In this document: positions 1 to 37,986 of the stretch, in pieces
Numbering within the stretch: the stretch's first letter is position 1
Layout: each line of letters starts with the position of its first letter
NCBI GenBank assembly: GCA_028688575.1
Contig: JAQTXW010000007.1
Location: forward strand, 1 to 58,092
DNA: 58,092 bases
Direction of reading: 5' to 3'
DNA from: Methylotenera sp.
Lineage (GTDB): Bacteria; Pseudomonadota; Gammaproteobacteria; Burkholderiales; Methylophilaceae
Notes under the pieces: model-generated
The model's database searches: none
Seen by the model: the letters and a program-made list of their open reading frames with translations, nothing else
What the model was told of the DNA's origin: nothing
Program-made: the position numbers and the translations under genes

Positions 1-582
1 TTACGCAAAGTTGGCTGATGCGAAATCCCAGTTAGCCAACGAAGCTAAGAACACTTCGACAAATTTAGCGCGTGCGTTACGATAATCAATGTAGTAAGCG
101 TGCTCCCACACGTCAATCGTGAGTAGTGCTTTATCGCCTGTGGTGAGCGGTGTGCCTGCTGCACCTGTATTAACGATATCTACAGAACCATCCGCTTTTT
201 TAACCAGCCATGTCCAGCCTGAGCCAAAATTGCCGACTGCTGAAGCTTGAAACGCTTTTTTAAACTCGTCAAATGAGCCCCATTTTACATTAATCGCATC
301 TGCCAATGCGCCAGCAGGTGCGCCGCCGCCATTTGGCTTCAAGCTGTTCCAGAAGAAAGTGTGGTTCCAAACCTGAGCTGAGTTATTGTAAATACCACCA
401 GAAGATTTTTTGATAATATCTTCAAGGCTGGCATTCTCAAATTCAGTGCCTTTGATCAGGTTGTTTAAGTTGGTCACGTAAGTTTGATGATGCTTGCCAT
501 AGTGAAACTCTAAAGTTTCTTCAGAAATGTGGGGTGCGAGTGCGTTTTTCGCAAAAGGTAATGCGGGTAATTGATGTTCCAT
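1..582 (-). CDS. sodB: Superoxide dismutase [Fe]
   Basis: Converts superoxide to hydrogen peroxide and oxygen in the cytoplasm. The 193-residue length is normal for Fe/Mn-SOD. All four metal ligands are in place: His27 (FHYGKHH), His74 ([10 protein letters not shown]), Asp157 and His161 (DVWEHAYY). Gln70 just before the second ligand, in AQVWNH, is characteristic of the iron enzyme; Mn-SODs carry the glutamine elsewhere. The ATG is preceded by AAGGAG at 5-nt spacing. The stop codon is the first three bases of the window, so the gene is complete. It appears monocistronic, with a candidate IscR-type operator about 50-75 bases upstream (631-655). Family call is secure; Fe rather than Mn is likely from the sequence only. 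Confidence 0.97.
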
Positions 583-15424: not shown

Positions 15425-16729
15425 GTGTATCTCTCCCAACTCATTGCTGCTGATGCGATCAATCAGGTGCTGTCAGGGCGTAATCTCACGCTGGCATTGC
15501 CCGATGCTCAGGCGCGTTTTCCTCAGGCCACACCTCAGCAGCGAGGCGGGGGGGCGGATTTAAGCTATGGTACGCTACGTTTTTATGGCGAGATTGAAGC
15601 ATATCTGAGCCTGTTGCTTGAAAAACCTTTGACCGATCATCGTATTTACACGTTGTTGCTGGTGGCAATCTACCAGTTGTTGCATGATAAAGCAGACGCA
15701 TTTACAGTGGTCAATCAGGCGGTGCATGCGGTATCCCAGCTAAAAAGACCTGCCCCCAAGGCTTGGGCAAAAGGCCTGGTGAATGGCGTGTTACGAAATT
15801 TTTTACGGCAGAAAGCCCATTTAACTGCGCTGGTGAGTGCTAATGAAGTGGCGTGTTATTCATATCCACAGTGGTGGATCAATAAGCTTAAATTGCAATA
15901 TCCACAACATTGGCAGCAGATGCTGCTAGCTGGAAATCAGCACCCGCCGATGACCTTGCGCATGAATCAGAAAAAGACCACGATGCCAGATTATCTCAAT
16001 CAGCTGCAGAATCAGGCAATGGAGGGGATTCAGCTAGGGCTGCAGGCTGTGATGTTGACGAAGCCAGTTGCCGTTGAAAAAGTCCCTGGGTTTAAAGAGG
16101 GAGTCGTTTCTGTGCAGGATTACGGCGCGCAACTCGCTGCGCCATTATTAGATGTTCAGGCAGGAATGCGGGTGTTAGATGCCTGCTGTGCGCCTGGCGG
16201 CAAAACAGGACATTTACTTGAGATGGCCAATGTGAACTTGACAGGCCTGGATAGCGATGAAGAGCGTCTGGCACGCGTGCAAAGTAATTTAGCGCGCTTG
16301 CAGTTGCAGGCTGATTTGTTGGTGGGTGACGCTGCCACAGACGCTTGGTTTGATGGCAAGTTATTTGACAGAATTTTGGCGGATGTGCCTTGTACCGCGT
16401 CTGGAATCGTGAGGCGTCATGTGGATATCAAGTGGTTGCGCCGCGAGCGCGATGTCAGCACCTTTGTTTTGCAGCAGCGTAAAATTCTGCCTAGTTTGTG
16501 GCAGAGGCTGGCAAAGGGTGGTAAATTGCTTTATGTGACCTGTTCTGTTTTTCATGAAGAGAATCAGGGGCAAATTGATCAGTTTTTAAATAGTCACGCA
16601 GATGCAACGCAACTGCCAATAGAGTCGATACTTAGCCAGCAATATAACAATATGACTTACATGAATGGGCAACTCATTCCAAACGATTTTCATGATGGTT
16701 TTTTCTATGCTTTGTTACAAAAGAATTAA
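15425..16729 (+). CDS. rsmB: 16S rRNA (cytosine-967-C5)-methyltransferase
   Basis: Methylates C967 of 16S rRNA with SAM. The 434-residue protein has the N-terminal NusB-like RNA-binding domain (about 1-130) and a Rossmann methyltransferase domain. Motifs: SAM-binding DACCAPGGKTGHLLEMA, DVPCTASGIVRRHVDIKW with one conserved Cys and YVTCSVFHEENQ with the other. The start is GTG. It is the first gene of the rsmB-DUF4390-ntrY-ntrX run, whose order is conserved in betaproteobacteria; the next gene overlaps its 3' end. Confidence 0.96.
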   Translation: MYLSQLIAADAINQVLSGRNLTLALPDAQARFPQATPQQRGGGADLSYGTLRFYGEIEAYLSLLLEKPLTDHRIYTLLLVAIYQLLHDKADAFTVVNQAVHAVSQLKRPAPKAWAKGLVNGVLRNFLRQKAHLTALVSANEVACYSYPQWWINKLKLQYPQHWQQMLLAGNQHPPMTLRMNQKKTTMPDYLNQLQNQAMEGIQLGLQAVMLTKPVAVEKVPGFKEGVVSVQDYGAQLAAPLLDVQAGMRVLDACCAPGGKTGHLLEMANVNLTGLDSDEERLARVQSNLARLQLQADLLVGDAATDAWFDGKLFDRILADVPCTASGIVRRHVDIKWLRRERDVSTFVLQQRKILPSLWQRLAKGGKLLYVTCSVFHEENQGQIDQFLNSHADATQLPIESILSQQYNNMTYMNGQLIPNDFHDGFFYALLQKN

Positions 16730-17276
16730 GCAATTATTTTGCGTGTTGGGGCTTGTGTTATTTGCCAGCACCTGTGTTGCTGCCTCTAATAGCCTGCATA
16801 TCAGAAGTGCCAATATCATTAGCTATGAAGATGAGTTTTTATTGAATGCGGATGCTGAGATTAATTTCAGTAAGGAGATGGAGAAGGCAATTCTTAAAGG
16901 CTTTACTTTTAACTTTATCATTGAGTTTCAGCTGTTTTCTCCTAGAACTTATTGGTTCGATGATGAAATTGTCACGACAGTGCAGCAAGTGAGCCTGAGT
17001 TATCATGCGTTGACCAAGCAGTATATTCTTGTGCGCAACGAGCAGCAGCGCACTTTGGCTACGCTGGATGAAGCGATTGAGGATTTATCTGTTATTCAGG
17101 ATCTCAAAGTGTTTCAAAAAAAGGATATAGAGAAAGACAGACCTTATAAGGCAGCGCTCATGATGCGTCTTGATCATAAATCTTTACCGAAGGCGATGCA
17201 GGTAGAGGGCATGTCTTCAAATGAGTGGAAAATGAGCTCGCAGCGATTTGAGTGGGTTCCCAATTTACTCAAATGA
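16707..17276 (+). CDS. DUF4390 domain protein, exported
   Basis: A 189-residue predicted periplasmic or membrane-anchored protein of the DUF4390 family, typically found between rsmB and ntrY. The signal sequence is at residues 1-25 (KRIKQLFCVLGLVLFASTCVAA). Family features follow: DEFLLNADAEINFSKEMEKA, GFTFNFIIEFQLF, YWFDDEIVT and the end WKMSSQRFEWVPNLL. The start at 16707 overlaps rsmB by 23 bp; ATGs at 16692 and 16695 in the same frame are alternatives. Its stop overlaps the ntrY start as ATGA, so translation is likely coupled. The role is unknown; context suggests a link to the NtrY sensor. Confidence 0.85.
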   Translation: MLCYKRIKQLFCVLGLVLFASTCVAASNSLHIRSANIISYEDEFLLNADAEINFSKEMEKAILKGFTFNFIIEFQLFSPRTYWFDDEIVTTVQQVSLSYHALTKQYILVRNEQQRTLATLDEAIEDLSVIQDLKVFQKKDIEKDRPYKAALMMRLDHKSLPKAMQVEGMSSNEWKMSSQRFEWVPNLLK

Positions 17277-19408
17277 AATACATCGTATTTACCAGTGCGT
17301 TTCTAGGCGGATTTTTACTCTACTTGCTTTCCAATGCGAGTGCAAATACTGCTGCATCGGGTGAGTACTACACCTTGCTGGTGGTGCTGAATGGCTTGTT
17401 GGCATTGGCGCTGGTTGCATTGATCGCGGTGCAGCTTTTCAAGTTGTATCAGAATATTCGCCAGCGGGTGATGGGAAGTCGCTTTACACTCAGGCTGTTA
17501 GGCTCTTTTGCCCTGATGGCAATTATTCCAGGATTAATCGTCTATCTGGTATCGGTTAATTTTTTAACACGGTCGATTGAGTCCTGGTTTAATGTGAAGG
17601 TGGAGTCTGCGCTTGAGGGTGGCTTGAACCTCGGGCAAACAGCGTTAGAGATCATGCTGGTAGATGTGAAGGAAAAGGGTGAGAACATGGCAACAAGTCT
17701 TGCACTATTGCCCGCGAATGCACATTTTGCCATCTTGAACGAGTTACGTGAACGTAATGCGGTGCAAGAGGCTGCCCTTTTGACGCCGCAAGGTAGGATT
17801 TTGGCGGTGTCCAGTGGCGATGCCAGCAGTTTTTTGCCAGACTTACCTAGCATTACGCAGTTAAGGCAGGCGCGTCAGCGCCTTTATGGCAACATTGAGC
17901 CTATCGATGGCAAGGGGTTGTTCTTGCGGGTGTTGGTCCCTGTTAATGTGCAAGATTTTGTAGGTGAAACGCGTATTTTACAGCTGATGCAGCCCGTGCC
18001 GAAAGCACTTGCGACTACAGCAGAAGCTGTGCAGGATGTTTATCAGGACTACCAGCAGTTATCTTATAGTCGTATGGCATTGCGTGAGGTGTTTGCTTTA
18101 ACCCTGACATTGGTCATGATGCTGTCGATGCTGACTGCGGTTGCCATTGCGTTTGTGTTAAGCAGGCGCTTGTCTGCACCTTTACGGGTGCTGGCGGAGG
18201 GCACAAAAGCCATTGCCAGCGGTAACTACAGCACCATTCTACCTGCACACGGTAAAGATGAGCTGGGAGTGCTGGTGCAGTCTTTTAACAGTATGACGCA
18301 GCAGTTAGGTGATGCGACCAAGGCCGCAGATAGAAACCGTGCCCGCGTTGAGGCTGCACGGGGTTATCTGGAAACCATTCTGGCGCATTTGTCATCTGGT
18401 GTACTGGCATTAAACGAGCGCGGTGAACTGCGCACATTTAATGAGGCAACCGTCAATATTTTAGGGGTGTCGTTAGAAAAATATGTAGGGTTTACCCCAA
18501 ATAAAATTATTGAAAAACAGCCACATTTGGCCAATTTCTTTCAAGTGGTTGTCATGCATGGCAAGCGTGACGAAGGTGGCCCGCAGAAAGAAGACGTGCA
18601 AACGCAGATTGAATTGGTGACTGATCAGGGGCTGCAGATTATTACCTTGCGCGGCACAAAATTGCCTGACGGAGGCTATGTGGTAGTGTTTGATGATGCT
18701 ACAGCTATGGTGCAGGCACAGCGCGATGCTGCATGGGGTGAAGTGGCAAGACGTTTGGCGCACGAGATAAAAAATCCATTAACGCCTATTCAGCTGTCAG
18801 CTGAGCGCATTGCACACCGGCTTAGCCATAAATTGGAAAGTGCCGACGCCGAAGTTTTGCAGCGATCAACACAGACGATTGTGAATCAGGTGGATGCTTT
18901 AAAACAGATGGTGAATGAATTTAGTGAATACGCAAGGTCACCTGCTTTGCATTTGAATAAACTGGATATCAATGCCCTGATTAAAGAAGTGTTAGCATTG
19001 TATGACATACCTAAAATCAAAATAAATTTACAGCTGGCATCTGAGCAACTGCTGATTAAGGGTGATGGCAACATGTTGCGTCAAGTATTGCATAATCTGT
19101 TGCAGAATGCGCAGGATGCCTTGGTGGACCAGCCGTCCCCCGAGATTATGATTCATACCAAAGCATGGCAAAACAGCATGACATTGACTGTGCAGGATAA
19201 CGGCGGTGGCATCCCTACTGAGATGATGTCGCGCGCGTTTGAGCCCTATATGACCACCAAGCCACATGGCACTGGGCTTGGCCTGGCGATTGTGAAGAAA
19301 ATCGTTGAGGAGCATAGAGGTAGCATAAAAATTGAAAATGTAGTCCAATCTGAGCTGGGTTTGGGTGGTGCTGTGGTCACTATCACTATCCCACTCTTCA
19401 ATGATTAA
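17273..19408 (+). CDS. ntrY: Two-component sensor histidine kinase NtrY
   Basis: Membrane sensor kinase paired with NtrX. The 711-residue protein has about four membrane segments (residues roughly 2-20, 32-56, 77-96 and 277-300) bounding an extracytoplasmic sensor region, then a HAMP domain (LSRRLSAPLRVLAEGTKAIA), a PAS domain (about 355-465), the phosphoacceptor motif RLAHEIKNPLTPIQLSAERI and the HATPase motifs NLLQNAQDAL, DNGGGIP and GTGLGLAIVKKIVEEH. The start is the ATGA overlap with DUF4390; the frame extends 7 codons further upstream. It is cotranscribed with ntrX (34-bp gap). Confidence 0.94.
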   Translation: MKYIVFTSAFLGGFLLYLLSNASANTAASGEYYTLLVVLNGLLALALVALIAVQLFKLYQNIRQRVMGSRFTLRLLGSFALMAIIPGLIVYLVSVNFLTRSIESWFNVKVESALEGGLNLGQTALEIMLVDVKEKGENMATSLALLPANAHFAILNELRERNAVQEAALLTPQGRILAVSSGDASSFLPDLPSITQLRQARQRLYGNIEPIDGKGLFLRVLVPVNVQDFVGETRILQLMQPVPKALATTAEAVQDVYQDYQQLSYSRMALREVFALTLTLVMMLSMLTAVAIAFVLSRRLSAPLRVLAEGTKAIASGNYSTILPAHGKDELGVLVQSFNSMTQQLGDATKAADRNRARVEAARGYLETILAHLSSGVLALNERGELRTFNEATVNILGVSLEKYVGFTPNKIIEKQPHLANFFQVVVMHGKRDEGGPQKEDVQTQIELVTDQGLQIITLRGTKLPDGGYVVVFDDATAMVQAQRDAAWGEVARRLAHEIKNPLTPIQLSAERIAHRLSHKLESADAEVLQRSTQTIVNQVDALKQMVNEFSEYARSPALHLNKLDINALIKEVLALYDIPKIKINLQLASEQLLIKGDGNMLRQVLHNLLQNAQDALVDQPSPEIMIHTKAWQNSMTLTVQDNGGGIPTEMMSRAFEPYMTTKPHGTGLGLAIVKKIVEEHRGSIKIENVVQSELGLGGAVVTITIPLFND

Positions 19409-19442: not shown

Positions 19443-20756
19443 ATGGCATCAAAACATATATTAGTGGTTGATGACGAGGTGGGAATCCGCGAATTATTGC
19501 GTGATATCCTGCAGGATGAGGGATACCGCGTACAGCTGGCTGAGAATGCAGCTGTAGCAAGGGCTATGCGCGCACATGAGCGCCCAGACGTTGTGTTGCT
19601 TGATATCTGGATGCCTGATTGCGATGGTATCAGCTTATTAAAAGAGTGGGCAAACGCGAACTTGCTGACCATGCCTGTCGTCATGATGTCGGGTCATGGC
19701 ACGATTGATACCGCAGTTGAAGCCACGCGCATTGGTGCGTTTGATTTTCTGGAAAAGCCCATTGCCTTACAAAAACTTTTAAAAACCGTAGCAACCGCCT
19801 TAAAACATAGTGAGCAAGCGCCGCGCTCCGAAATGAGTCTGGTAAGTTTAGGTAAAAGCCCGCTTGTAGTCGCCTTGAAAGAGCGCTTGGATAAAATTGC
19901 TGCGAGTAACAGTGTTGCACCTGTTCCTGTGTTATTGATTGGACCTAAAGGCGGTGGTGCGGAGTTGTGCGCGCGGTTTCTGCAAAATGAAAATACACCA
20001 TGGCTACACCTGCAAGAGTTTAGCCAGCTGGTTCAGACGCCTTTGGATATTTTGGCACAGGTGACAGATGGTGTATTGTTTATTGATGAGATTGCCGAGT
20101 TAAGTAAAACCGAGCAAAGGGGTTTGCTGCTGCTGCTCACTAAAGCAGAAAAATATCACGTGCGCGTTGTTTGTGCGACTAGCCATAATTTGCCTAAATT
20201 ACAGGCAGAGGGTTTGTTTGACCATAATTTACTACAAATTCTGTCTGCAACCTCTTTGCGTGTTCCAGCCCTAGATGAGCATAAAGAAGATATCCCAGAT
20301 TTAGTCGTAGCGATTGCAAATTTGCAGTTTGAGCTGTTTGATATCCCGTATCGGGAGTTTGATGTCGCAGCGCTCAATGCATTGCGCAATGCGCCTTGGC
20401 CAGGCGATATTGCGCAGTTGGAGGCGGTGGTCTGCAATCTGATACAAACGAGTTTGGGTGAGAGAATCGGATTAGAGGATGTTAACAGAGTGACACATCA
20501 GTTTGATGTGTCACTGCAGCGTAATGTTGAGCCTTTAAATGTGGAAGCGCCCTCGTCAGCTGGGCTGGCTGCAGTGGCAGAATTTAATCTGGAGCAGCCA
20601 TTGCGAGAGGCAAGAGATGATTTTGAGCGCCTTTATTTTACACATCATATTAAGCGTGTGGCGGGCAATATGAATAGGCTGGCTGAAGTTTCAGGTTTGG
20701 AGCGTACGCATTTGTATCGCAAGCTCAAACAGCTGGACATCAAAGCTAAGGGCTAG
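19443..20756 (+). CDS. ntrX: NtrX-type response regulator with degenerate AAA+ domain
   Basis: Cognate regulator of NtrY, 437 residues. The receiver domain (1-120) has the acidic pair at 10-12, phosphoacceptor Asp54 (VLLDIWMPDCDG) and Lys104-region (FLEKPIALQ). The central region aligns with sigma-54 activators but is altered: the Walker A position reads LLIGPKGGGAEL instead of GESGxGKE, and the segment between it and Walker B (GVLFIDEIAEL) is about 30 residues short and lacks GAFTGA. The C-terminal Fis-type helix-turn-helix is intact (VAGNMNRLAEVSGLERTHLY RKLKQL). It probably regulates by DNA binding with ordinary RNA polymerase rather than by activating sigma-54. Confidence 0.88.
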   Translation: MASKHILVVDDEVGIRELLRDILQDEGYRVQLAENAAVARAMRAHERPDVVLLDIWMPDCDGISLLKEWANANLLTMPVVMMSGHGTIDTAVEATRIGAFDFLEKPIALQKLLKTVATALKHSEQAPRSEMSLVSLGKSPLVVALKERLDKIAASNSVAPVPVLLIGPKGGGAELCARFLQNENTPWLHLQEFSQLVQTPLDILAQVTDGVLFIDEIAELSKTEQRGLLLLLTKAEKYHVRVVCATSHNLPKLQAEGLFDHNLLQILSATSLRVPALDEHKEDIPDLVVAIANLQFELFDIPYREFDVAALNALRNAPWPGDIAQLEAVVCNLIQTSLGERIGLEDVNRVTHQFDVSLQRNVEPLNVEAPSSAGLAAVAEFNLEQPLREARDDFERLYFTHHIKRVAGNMNRLAEVSGLERTHLYRKLKQLDIKAKG

Positions 20757-20861
20757 TCTTTGGCAGTCGCTGCTGTTATTCGCGTGATGCGTTAACCCGT
20801 TTTGGTAGCGCGTTACGTTTAACTGATAAGCAGAGTAATATTGTGCATGCTTGAGCCAATC

Positions 20862-21452
20862 ATGACCGATGAATATCTTATGCGCAAATTCTGTGCGGGT
20901 GATGTACACGCCTTTGATTTGTTATACCAGCGTCATGAAAAGCCAATTTATCGGTATATCCGCAGGCTGATGGGGGACGCATTAAACGCGCAGGCCGATG
21001 ATGTTTTTCAGGATGTATGGATACGCCTCATTGATGCGCGCATGCAGTGGCAGCCGCGTGAAAACGCAAGTTTTAAAACATGGCTATATACATTGGCGCA
21101 TCATCGGGCGATTGATATATTACGTAAAAGTGGCCGTGAAGTTTCAGTAGATGATGGCTGGTTGGACGATGAGCAGGTGGCACCCTGGCAATTATGGCCT
21201 GCTGCTCACGCCTTACAGCCAGAACAACAGGCATTCTGGCGTAAGGCTGGCCAGCGCTTGCTGCATTGTCTGGATAGCTTGCCGGCAATACAGCGTGCGG
21301 CATTTTTGCTGCACCATGAGGATGGTCTGAGTGTGGATGAAATGAGCTTGGTATTGAATGCTGAGTTTGAAGCAATTAAAAGCCGCCTGCGTTATGCTTT
21401 GTCGAAGTTGCGCGCGTGTATGGGCGCTTATTTGCCACCGATGGTGGATTAG
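20862..21452 (+). CDS. ECF-family RNA polymerase sigma factor
   Basis: A 196-residue sigma-70 family group IV factor. Region 2 is clear (FDLLYQRHEKPIYRYIRRLM, DDVFQDVWIRLID, FKTWLYTLAHHRAIDILRK) and region 4 follows a linker of about 55 residues (LDSLPAIQRAAFLLHHEDGL, SVDEMSLVL, AIKSRLRYALSKLR). There is no region 3. The start is uncertain: ATG at 20862 is used, with ATG 20847 and GTG 20841 in the same frame. A likely anti-sigma gene starts 23 bp after the stop. The upstream 105 bp contain repeated GTTAAC/GTTTAAC and GTTACG motifs that could be an autoregulated promoter. The signal sensed is unknown. Confidence 0.9.
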   Translation: MTDEYLMRKFCAGDVHAFDLLYQRHEKPIYRYIRRLMGDALNAQADDVFQDVWIRLIDARMQWQPRENASFKTWLYTLAHHRAIDILRKSGREVSVDDGWLDDEQVAPWQLWPAAHALQPEQQAFWRKAGQRLLHCLDSLPAIQRAAFLLHHEDGLSVDEMSLVLNAEFEAIKSRLRYALSKLRACMGAYLPPMVD

Positions 21453-21475
21453 GCAGCGAGTATGGGCTTGATGGC

Positions 21476-22411
21476 ATGACGATACGTGATGAATATTTAC
21501 AGCAAGTGCTGAAGCACACGCCTGACAGGCTATTCACGCCTAATGAAAATGCCAGTCGTGCTGTACTGAGTTACGCACGGCAGGCAATCGCAAACGAGAG
21601 GCGCGCATGGTGGCACACGATCCTCCTGTGGCTAAAAAGACCGCTGGTTTCAAATTGGCAGCGAGCTGGGGCGGGCAGTCTGGCTACGGCTTTGGTGGTG
21701 ATGTTGATTTTCTGGCAAATGGTGCCAGAAAAAGAGACATGGCTGGATACTTTACCTGATCGCACGTTTAATACTGTAAAAAACAATGCAGTGGCGTTGA
21801 TGCAGGATGAAAAATCATCAGAGCAAAAAGCGCCATCAGCGCGATTGGCAGAGCGCGCTGAGATCAATCAATCGCAGGAGTCATCAGTGGCAACTCAGCC
21901 TGAACATGCACTTAGTCATGGCGAACAACAGTCGATTGCGCCAGATGATGAGATGGCCGTGACCACGGAAATTGCGTCACCTCAAACCTCAACCTCCAGT
22001 GCTGATGCCGTAAGCGGCATACTCTCTGCCAGCCAGGCAAGGGATAGCAGGCGACAAAAAACCGAAGTAGCCAGCCCTGAGCTTACTAAGGCACAGCCCG
22101 CTAATAAAGAGGCTGTACTCGACATAACACAATTGCTAGAGTTGATTAAAAATGAGGGGGGGCAGTCCGTTGCGGCCAGAGATATTGAGGCAGGAATACT
22201 ACGCTTGTTGAAAATTGACATGCAAATAGCGACACAGGCAAATTCAGCGACATGTTTGCAAGTGGCCTCAGTGGATGCGTCGCCTGATCTGGAAACGGGC
22301 TATCAGGTGCTAATCATCAGCACTTGTGATAGCTCAGTGCAACTAGTCAACAGCGTGGCAGATTATAATCAGCAGATGCAGGCCTGGTTTCAAAAATTAC
22401 AGAAAAAATAA
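21476..22411 (+). CDS. Putative membrane anti-sigma factor
   Basis: A 311-residue protein with an N-terminal cytoplasmic part (about 1-70, DEYLQQVLKHTPDRLFTPNE), one membrane segment at about 79-97 (LATALVVMLIFWQM) and a long low-complexity Ser/Ala/Glu-rich extracytoplasmic part, ending in a more ordered domain (about 210-311) with two Cys. Immediate linkage to the ECF sigma gene and topology fit an anti-sigma factor. The zinc-type HxxxCxxC motif is absent, so it is not of the ZAS class. The start ATG at 21476 is preferred over an upstream GTG at 21416 that overlaps the sigma gene. Function is inferred from context. Confidence 0.6.
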   Translation: MTIRDEYLQQVLKHTPDRLFTPNENASRAVLSYARQAIANERRAWWHTILLWLKRPLVSNWQRAGAGSLATALVVMLIFWQMVPEKETWLDTLPDRTFNTVKNNAVALMQDEKSSEQKAPSARLAERAEINQSQESSVATQPEHALSHGEQQSIAPDDEMAVTTEIASPQTSTSSADAVSGILSASQARDSRRQKTEVASPELTKAQPANKEAVLDITQLLELIKNEGGQSVAARDIEAGILRLLKIDMQIATQANSATCLQVASVDASPDLETGYQVLIISTCDSSVQLVNSVADYNQQMQAWFQKLQKK

Positions 22412-36418: not shown

Positions 36419-37986
36419 AGCAGGGTTTACACCTAAAATTTTCGCAAAATCTCTCGCTTACGCCACAATTGCAGCAAGCGATTAGGTTGCTGCAACTTTC
36501 TACATTGGAGTTGAATCAGGAAATCGACGTGCTCATGCAAACCAACCCTCTGCTGGAAAGAGGGGATGAAGGTGAGGATGAGTACGGCAATGATGTTGAT
36601 GCGACAGATCCTGTGCTTGAAACGTCAGAAGGCAGTTTAGAATCTTCGCCACAGGATAATACGCCAGCACAGCTGGCTGAACACGACAGCGGCGCTGATT
36701 TTTATGATGCTGATTTAGCTGCGCCAGATACGGTTTCAGCGATGGATTCGACTGAGCCTGAAGCAAAAAATGCTGATTATTCAGAAACTTACTCAGCGGA
36801 ATTTGGTGATGAGTTTGATGAGTTCTCCAATGGCAGCCGCTGGGATGAAAATACAGCACCTGCGGATGATGACAGTGACTTTAAGCCGCAGGAGACCCTG
36901 CATCTGACATTGCACGAGCATTTGCTTTCGCAGTTAAAGCTGATGCCATTATCCGAGCGCGACCAGTCACTGGCCTTGCTGTTGGTGGATAGTATTAGCG
37001 AAGATGGCTATTTGGAGCTGTCGCTAGAAGAAATTCAGGAGCAAGTGCCTGCAGAACTGGAGATCGACGAGCTTGAACTACAAACAGCGCTTCGACATAT
37101 TCAGCACCTGGATCCCGCAGGGGTTGGTGCGCGCAATCTCAGTGAGTGCCTGCAGTTGCAGTTGCAGATGCTGCCCCAGACCACAGCACACCTGGATTTG
37201 GCCAAGCTGCTTGCAAAACAGCATCTGCCTTTGCTTGCTAGCAGGGATTTTGTAAAATTGCGTAAGGCGCTTGCATGTGATGAGCCCACTTTAAAGTATG
37301 TGCAGCAGCTGATTACCAGCCTAAATCCTCGTCCAGGCAGTGCATTCAGTCAGATAGGTTCTGAGCACTATATCCAGCATGAGGTCATCGTTAAAAAAAC
37401 AAAAGGCATATGGATAGCGAGCTTGAACGAGAGCGTGATTCCCAAGCTCAAAATCAATCAACTCTATGCGGGAATTTTAAAACGCAACCGAGATAGTTCC
37501 AGCCAGTACCTGCAAAGCCAGATGCAGGAGGCTAAGTGGATGATTAAAAATATTCAGCAGCGCTTTTCCACCATACTGCGTGTATCGCAGGCCATTGTAG
37601 ATAGACAGCGCAATTTTCTGGAATACGGTGAGGTGGCGATGCGACCATTGGTATTGCGCGAGATCGCTGATGAGCTTGAGCTGCATGAATCGACAATTTC
37701 ACGCGTCACCAGTAATAAATACATGCTGACGCCACGCGGTATCTTTGAGCTTAAATACTTTTTTGGTAGTTCAGTGGCAACCGATACAGGCGGCACTTGT
37801 TCTGCAACGGCTATTCGCGCATTGATTAAGCAATTGGTCGAGCAGGAAAATCCAAAAAAACCGTATTCTGATAGCCAGATTGCAGATTTGCTGGCGAAAC
37901 AAGGCATTGTCGTAGCGCGGCGCACCATCGCCAAATATCGCGAGTCATTAAATATTGCTCCAGCCAGCTTACGAAAATCTTTATAA
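36415..37986 (+). CDS. rpoN: RNA polymerase sigma-54 factor
   Basis: Alternative sigma factor that needs AAA+ activators. The 523-residue protein has the Gln-rich N-terminal activator-interacting region ([20 protein letters not shown]), an acidic linker (about 50-155), the core-binding domain, the helix-turn-helix ([23 protein letters not shown]) and the RpoN box region [14 protein letters not shown] near the C-terminus. It is translationally coupled to lptB. The NtrX in this window lacks the loop required to activate it. Confidence 0.97.

Follow-up and report, generated by a model that had tools for sequence, protein, structure and literature searches.

The window, that is, the whole stretch of 58,092 nucleotides from Methylotenera sp. 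analysed here, carries on its forward strand a cluster of four genes in the order rsmB-DUF4390-ntrY-ntrX. The first gene, rsmB (15425..16729), encodes a 16S rRNA methyltransferase (Pfam Methyltr_RsmB-F, 3.1e-53, and synteny). The DUF4390 gene (plrP, 16665..17276; PF14334, 2.8e-45) belongs to the family of Bordetella PlrP. Its open reading frame overlaps rsmB at the start, and the real start may sit further inside. In an excerpt of PMC13001219, PlrP is proposed as the third component of NtrYX systems. The sensor kinase gene ntrY (17252..19408; HAMP, PAS, HisKA and HATPase domains by Pfam) encodes the presumed partner of NtrX. Immediately 3' of it, as in NtrX of the beta/PlrR lineage, lies ntrX (19443..20756), which has an ATG start and zero internal stops and encodes 437 aa. 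The gene for sigma-54, rpoN (36442-37977), is found 15.7 kb downstream, close to the 16 kb given in the initial annotation of this DNA.

After ntrX, positions 20841-22411 hold a sigma-70-family gene (ECF-type) and a gene for a 331-aa protein without a Pfam match. When the genus loci were rescanned, with flanks of at most 1.5 to 4 kb, the pair appeared only in G000 and G033. With flanks of the same size, it appeared in 0 of the best 80 named loci of 593 relatives.

The NtrX protein consists of a receiver, a central domain and a Fis-type helix-turn-helix. The receiver (residues 6-116, 19458..19790; Pfam) is intact, with the phospho-acceptor Asp54 as well as D10, D11, S83 and K105. Each of these five residues is found in 139/140 rows of the order and named sets described below (the latter from the best 80 of 593); the one row left has a gap there. 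The central domain begins with a pseudo-AAA+ core (residues 136-277, 19848..20273; Pfam Sigma54_activ_2, PF14532, 6.1e-43), which by the census, the structure model and the fold comparison has a predicted AAA+ fold but neither L1/GAFTGA nor L2, and no Walker A Lys or arginine fingers. Within the core lie a degenerate Walker A, GPKGGGAE (residues 167-174, 19941..19964), and a Walker B-like VLFIDE (residues 211-216, 20073..20090). The core is followed by a helical subdomain that resembles an AAA lid and has lost the sensor II Arg (residues 279-353, 20277..20501; AAA_lid_14, PF25601), and by a fast-evolving linker (residues 358-384, 20514..20594; omega 0.30, pLDDT below 50 at 364-377). The helix-turn-helix with its ERTHLYRK motif (residues 392-431, 20616..20735; HTH_8) closes the protein. 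The receiver with its phospho-acceptor Asp and the Fis helix-turn-helix are shared with beta/PlrR NtrX. A domain sits between them, and in this the protein departs from the AAA+-less PlrR type.

NCBIfam NF051870 (NtrX) is the best-scoring model for the protein, with 257 bits, and its curated cut-off of 600 is missed. This cut-off serves annotation and was presumably chosen on NtrX proteins whose AAA+ domain is fuller. We base orthology on synteny and full-length similarity and not on the NF051870 score.

Catalytic and sigma-54 features of the central domain

The census of catalytic positions covers the genus, other families of the order and a set of named loci. Full-length orthologs come from 33 of the 37 genomes of the genus. 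Of the other four, one has the gene split, one has a fragment at the end of a contig, and two yield no ortholog; these two assemblies are given as 90 and 78 percent complete. In the genome with the split gene (G022), ntrX lies in two open frames of 352 and 183 aa, an assembly error or a broken gene. In G001, also of this genus, both the ntrX ortholog (best match 5.5e-27) and rpoN are missing; the two genes are about 16 kb apart in the window, and one missing or deleted stretch may explain both. One genome from each of 24 further families was added. All 24 have an ortholog, 17 with the pseudo-AAA+ domain and 7 without. For the named set, relatives were searched with the peptide patterns LDIWMPD and ERTHLYRK, and the best 80 of 593 were taken, 79 of them full-length; hence they are no evidence for these two motifs. 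They were ranked by their match to an AAA+-bearing protein, so AAA+-less forms are under-represented, and some come from the same genomes as the order sample. Left out of the census were the split gene (L069), two contig-end loci (L070 and L132), a non-syntenic second copy (L071) and nine AAA+-less proteins, in which these columns do not exist.

The second copy, in genome G059 (L071:2083-3597, minus strand), is an NtrX-like protein with no rsmB, DUF4390 or ntrY match within the fetched 7 kb. It has a full-length Sigma54_activat match but lacks GAFTGA and carries Arg where Walker A should have its Lys, and its Fis helix-turn-helix is tandemly duplicated (two HTH_8 stretches).

As a yardstick we used the seven intact sigma-54 activators of the same genome. 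Its 11 PF00158 matches comprise these seven, ntrX of the window and three that are weak and partial. The Walker A Lys, the Walker B Asp-Glu, both arginine fingers, the sensor II Arg and GAFTGA are present in every one of the seven. The initial annotation had described a degraded Walker A, GPKGGGAE, and a missing GAFTGA stretch. Both observations hold: Ala173 stands at the Walker A Lys position, and the whole protein contains no GAFTGA, not even in a loose form, and no G..G.GK P-loop. A displaced GAFTGA or Walker A, which would have spoken against the annotation, was looked for over the entire sequence and rejected.

GAFTGA, the G..G.GK P-loop and the aligned Walker A Lys are each present in 0/33 genus orthologs (own included), 0/17 orthologs of other families and 0/79 named loci (best 80 of 593), compared to 7/7 intact activators. 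The Arg of the first arginine finger is equally absent (0/33, 0/17 and 0/79 of the best 80 of 593), with Asp in its place in all 33 genus orthologs. The sensor II Arg is found in none of the 33 (Ala in each), in 1/17 other families and in 0/79 named loci (best 80 of 593). The second arginine-finger Arg is absent from all 33 genus orthologs but kept in 3/17 other families and 30/79 named loci (best 80 of 593); hence not every catalytic position has been lost across the order. The residue in place of the Walker A Lys differs within the order and named sets together (named again the best 80 of 593): it may be Ala, Phe, Val, Met, Pro, Ile, Ser, Thr, Tyr or His. The Walker B Asp and the sensor II position are variable too. 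By their record titles, the loci without the Walker A Lys among the best 80 of 593 include Nitrosomonas, Nitrosospira, Thiobacillus, Chromobacterium, Neisseria, Snodgrassella, Dechloromonas, Accumulibacter and Aromatoleum.

The receiver, the Walker B-like segment and the Fis helix-turn-helix had been described as kept, and Pfam, the receiver residues and the LFIDE string bear this out. Even so, the Walker B Asp is kept in only 2/33 genus orthologs (own included), and LFIDE is therefore no evidence for a working site.

The distances between the motifs have changed as well. Walker A and Walker B are 41 residues apart in NtrX of the window (39-41 across the census), as opposed to 64-68 in the intact activators; for Walker B and sensor I the figures are 31 (31-32 across the census) and 41. 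Hence the stretches that hold L1 and L2 are both shortened. These two loops couple ATP hydrolysis to sigma-54. Measured against the features of sigma-54 enhancer-binding proteins, the protein lacks the Walker A Lys and GAFTGA and has the AAA+ fold by prediction.

Could the dead state be a sequencing error or a frameshift? This is ruled out, since all 33 full-length genus orthologs share it; it is neither an error nor a one-off. The alignment with related NtrX and the structure model that the initial annotation had suggested as checks thus lead to a dead state common to the genus and a predicted AAA+ fold. The expectation that the protein should neither hydrolyse ATP nor remodel the sigma-54 holoenzyme gains support from the sequence, in which the Walker A Lys, GAFTGA, arginine fingers and sensor II Arg are gone. 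Loss of the P-loop Lys also argues against ATP binding, although a missing Lys alone would leave binding without hydrolysis possible.

The proximity of rpoN is not paradoxical, since the genome encodes seven intact activators. We found rpoN in 60/61 genomes and in 12/12 further genomes that were chosen by locus. Among these there is no genome with ntrX and without rpoN; the sole rpoN-less genome, G001, also lacks the ntrX ortholog. Because rpoN is present in every checked genome that bears an ortholog, the co-occurrence does not show sigma-54 independence. Contrary to our main reading, NtrX is listed as a sigma-54 activator for Acidithiobacillia in part of a comparative study (PMC12194929).

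Distribution and loss of the domain

The pseudo-AAA+ domain is kept in 18/26 sampled families (own included) and the AAA+ domain is absent in 8/26, mostly judged from one genome per family. In seven of these eight families the orthologs are 211-264 aa long, consist of receiver and helix-turn-helix and lie beside ntrY and DUF4390; Pfam, with E up to 1, finds no AAA+ or sigma-54 interaction domain in them. The eighth is represented by two genomes (L095 and L096), with proteins of 230 and 221 aa flanked by ntrY and DUF4390 at both loci. In the loci of the 24 further families, ntrY and DUF4390 are beside the ortholog in 24/24 and rsmB is in 19/24, counting the fetched stretch only. ERTHLYRK is kept in 33/33 genus orthologs, 17/17 other families and 9/9 AAA+-less proteins, as well as in 77/79 named loci (best 80 of 593), a set that was searched with that motif. 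Hence the way the protein reads DNA seems to be retained whether or not the middle domain is there.

How often was the whole domain lost? We built a quick tree of 57 rows from NtrY and the NtrX receiver and helix-turn-helix, with the AAA+ columns excluded. On this tree the AAA+-less state requires two changes, one for a clade of eight rows from seven families and one for G060 separately. Forcing the nine AAA+-less rows into one clade is 39 log units worse (AU p = 0.023). The domain was probably lost two or more times, which is likely and not certain given that the tree is a quick one and holds two long rows, L060 and L067, of which L067 is AAA+-less.

Outside the order, we hand-picked 38 NtrX-like proteins from other orders of the class, chosen by similarity and not by synteny from a list of 183/276 genomes with a match. 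GAFTGA is absent in 38/38, so its loss looks general to NtrX and, as Brucella NtrX lacks it too (alignment), is not peculiar to the protein in the window. In the same 38 proteins the Walker A Lys is kept in 22/38, the median spacing from Walker A to Walker B is 59, and ERTHLYRK occurs in 28/38. Most simply, these sequences would mean an early loss of GAFTGA in NtrX, followed in this order by the further loss of Lys, L1 and L2. Four proteins from other orders of the class (L079, L080, L084 and L085) have a shortened AAA+ domain, L084 and L085 also without the Walker A Lys; this looks like convergent decay.

Four records of metagenome-assembled genomes titled Bordetella parapertussis (L124, L125, L162 and L173, among the matches listed) carry NtrX with the pseudo-AAA+ domain. 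They are 47-55% identical to the window protein. NtrX of Bordetella, as a beta NtrX, is described in print as AAA+-less, and the Bordetella titles may be wrong.

Predicted fold, selection and proposed role

The AlphaFold model, built from 73 sequences with the window protein first, has a mean pLDDT of 90.7 and a pTM of 0.73. The pLDDT is 93-98 in blocks of residues 161-290, which is most of the core. Foldseek gives Brucella NtrX (5m7n) as the top match, and the same protein is the best PDB match by sequence. Residues 134-351 of the model superimpose on the active-state AAA+ domain 1ny6_A with Z 22.5 and an rmsd of 2.3 A over 214 residues. The whole-chain rmsd of 11-14 A reflects domain placement and was left unused.

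Selection was estimated from 13 genus genomes with 12 pairs of moderate dS, which are not independent of each other; a run with 17 pairs agrees. Omega is 0.007 for the receiver, 0.037 for the pseudo-AAA+ core, 0.031 for the lid, 0.30 for the linker and 0.025 for the helix-turn-helix. As a control we took an intact, GAFTGA-bearing NtrC-like protein from 13 genus genomes (11 pairs, with domain limits set by the offset from Walker A), which gives 0.0135 for the receiver, 0.005 for AAA+, 0.024 for the lid, 0.079 for the linker and 0.051 for the helix-turn-helix. Hence constraint on the pseudo-AAA+ domain is about seven times weaker than on a working AAA+ domain and about eight times stronger than on the linker of the same protein. 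With its predicted fold and the purifying selection on it, the dead domain does not resemble debris.

What could such a domain be good for? We think it likely that NtrX of the window is a phosphorylation-driven, sigma-54-independent regulator in which the pseudo-AAA+ domain serves as a scaffold. This reading builds on the absence of catalytic and sigma-54 features, the predicted AAA+ fold, purifying selection, orthology by synteny and the absence of the domain in relatives. From these we infer phosphorylation, a dimer scaffold role and sigma-70 targets. NtrY, presumably modulated by the DUF4390 protein, would phosphorylate Asp54 of the receiver. Phosphorylated NtrX would pair up, bind target promoters through its Fis helix-turn-helix and act on RNA polymerase with the housekeeping sigma-70, by contact or by blocking. 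The central domain would have kept the AAA+ fold and neither hydrolyse ATP nor engage sigma-54; it would sit between receiver and helix-turn-helix as a spacer or dimer scaffold that is rigid and independent of nucleotide. Such a role would explain why the domain is constrained and yet dispensable in the lineages without it. The protein is probably an ordinary DNA-binding regulator, of the sigma-70 type or a repressor, as the initial annotation had supposed from its motifs.

Several published observations bear on these steps, all taken from parts of the papers cited. The phosphorylated form of Bordetella PlrR, which is encoded in the same gene cluster, is essential in vitro (PMC13001219). NtrX of N. 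gonorrhoeae controls respiratory genes (PMC12697260), and in S. meliloti the phosphorylated protein binds its sites, with some of the genes concerned being repressed (PMC9223101). At sigma-70 promoters, GAFTGA-less NtrC is active in both Caulobacter and R. capsulatus (PMC10274813). The same source describes a GAFTGA-less Vibrio regulator, spelt VspR there, that acts with sigma-70 without ATP and does not require phosphorylation. Hence the phosphorylation step may not hold for all such proteins. The DNA sites given for NtrX in the printed excerpts differ between species (GCAN9TGC versus CAAN3-5TTG).

One could also argue that the dead domain does more than hold the protein together. In most sampled beta families it may have become a new module for signal input or partner binding, and other lineages may have cut it out. 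This seems unlikely to us, if far from negligible. If true, NtrX would show an AAA+ motor being demolished, reused or deleted, stage by stage.

A related argument makes the pseudo-AAA+ domain a sensory domain that binds a ligand or a partner, comparable to c-di-GMP binding in FleQ and VpsR, so that the constraint reflects a second input and not a scaffold. The strong residual constraint on a domain without catalytic residues fits this idea, as do the FleQ and VpsR structures among the fold matches. We nevertheless consider it doubtful, for the following reasons. First, LFRS, a FleQ motif, is found in 0/33, 0/17 and 0/79 (best 80 of 593) proteins, but the test is weak, as the motif is missing from the 7 intact controls too. 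Second, the conserved columns, read from column lists, look fold-related and not like a binding patch. Third, 8/26 sampled families dispense with the domain.

It is improbable that ATP is instead kept as a static ligand for oligomerization at sigma-70 promoters. R. capsulatus NtrC needs ATP binding and not hydrolysis, according to a part of PMC10274813, and Brucella NtrX has been crystallised with ATP and with ADP (PDB entry titles). In this order, however, the P-loop Lys is replaced by many different residues, and the Walker B Asp and sensor II are variable.

That the domain is a decaying, near-functionless remnant on its way out is very improbable: its catalytic residues vary, 8/26 sampled families lack it and its omega is about seven times that of the intact NtrC-like AAA+, but values of 0.037 for the domain and 0.007 for the receiver indicate strong selection on the protein, and 33/37 genus genomes, several of which are incomplete assemblies, hold full-length orthologs.

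Comparison with known systems

The protein that we favor as a sigma-54-independent regulator with a scaffold domain can be compared with several known systems. Atypical enhancer-binding proteins of the VpsR/FleQ type are under c-di-GMP control. NtrX of the window resembles them in its three-part architecture and in the fold matches. It differs in that c-di-GMP control is theirs (PDB titles) and that it lacks the LFRS of FleQ. The GAFTGA-less NtrC proteins of Rhodobacter capsulatus and Caulobacter are alike as NtrC-type response regulators, and sigma-70 action is reported for those two in a part of PMC10274813. According to the same text, they need ATP binding or the residues of the ATPase, whereas the P-loop Lys is missing here.

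Alphaproteobacterial NtrX (Brucella, 5m7n; Caulobacter) shares the receiver, the GAFTGA-less AAA+-type domain and the Fis helix-turn-helix, with the absence of GAFTGA in Caulobacter taken from a part of PMC10274813. Brucella NtrX differs in that its Walker A still has the Lys (GPSGAGKE) and lies further from Walker B. Bordetella PlrR and other beta NtrX are alike in the rsmB-plrP gene cluster and its order, the receiver and the presumed kinase partner. A passage of PMC13001219, citing Bonato 2016, says that the AAA+ domain present in alpha NtrX is missing from beta NtrX. Compared with PlrR by this description, NtrX of the window differs in keeping a domain that is predicted to fold and has no active site.

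Our results refine this printed statement, which fits 8/26 sampled families, with a degenerate domain in the other 18/26. We found no description of a degenerate AAA+ domain in beta NtrX in the literature searched; a review sorts NtrX into four classes, a division that Atack 2013 may have made, and part of our observation may be covered there. The results also bear on annotation. PF14532 is matched by 73/73 members of alignment A2, and its Pfam name, "Sigma-54 interaction domain," can mark proteins without the features for sigma-54 work.

GAFTGA-less NtrX is already in print (in the part of PMC10274813 used here), and the degenerate AAA+ of beta NtrX is an intermediate form. Together they form a graded natural series: first NtrX that has the Walker A Lys but no GAFTGA, then a dead and constrained pseudo-AAA+ domain, and finally receiver plus helix-turn-helix. 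Such a series allows the step from a sigma-54 activator to an ordinary regulator to be tested.
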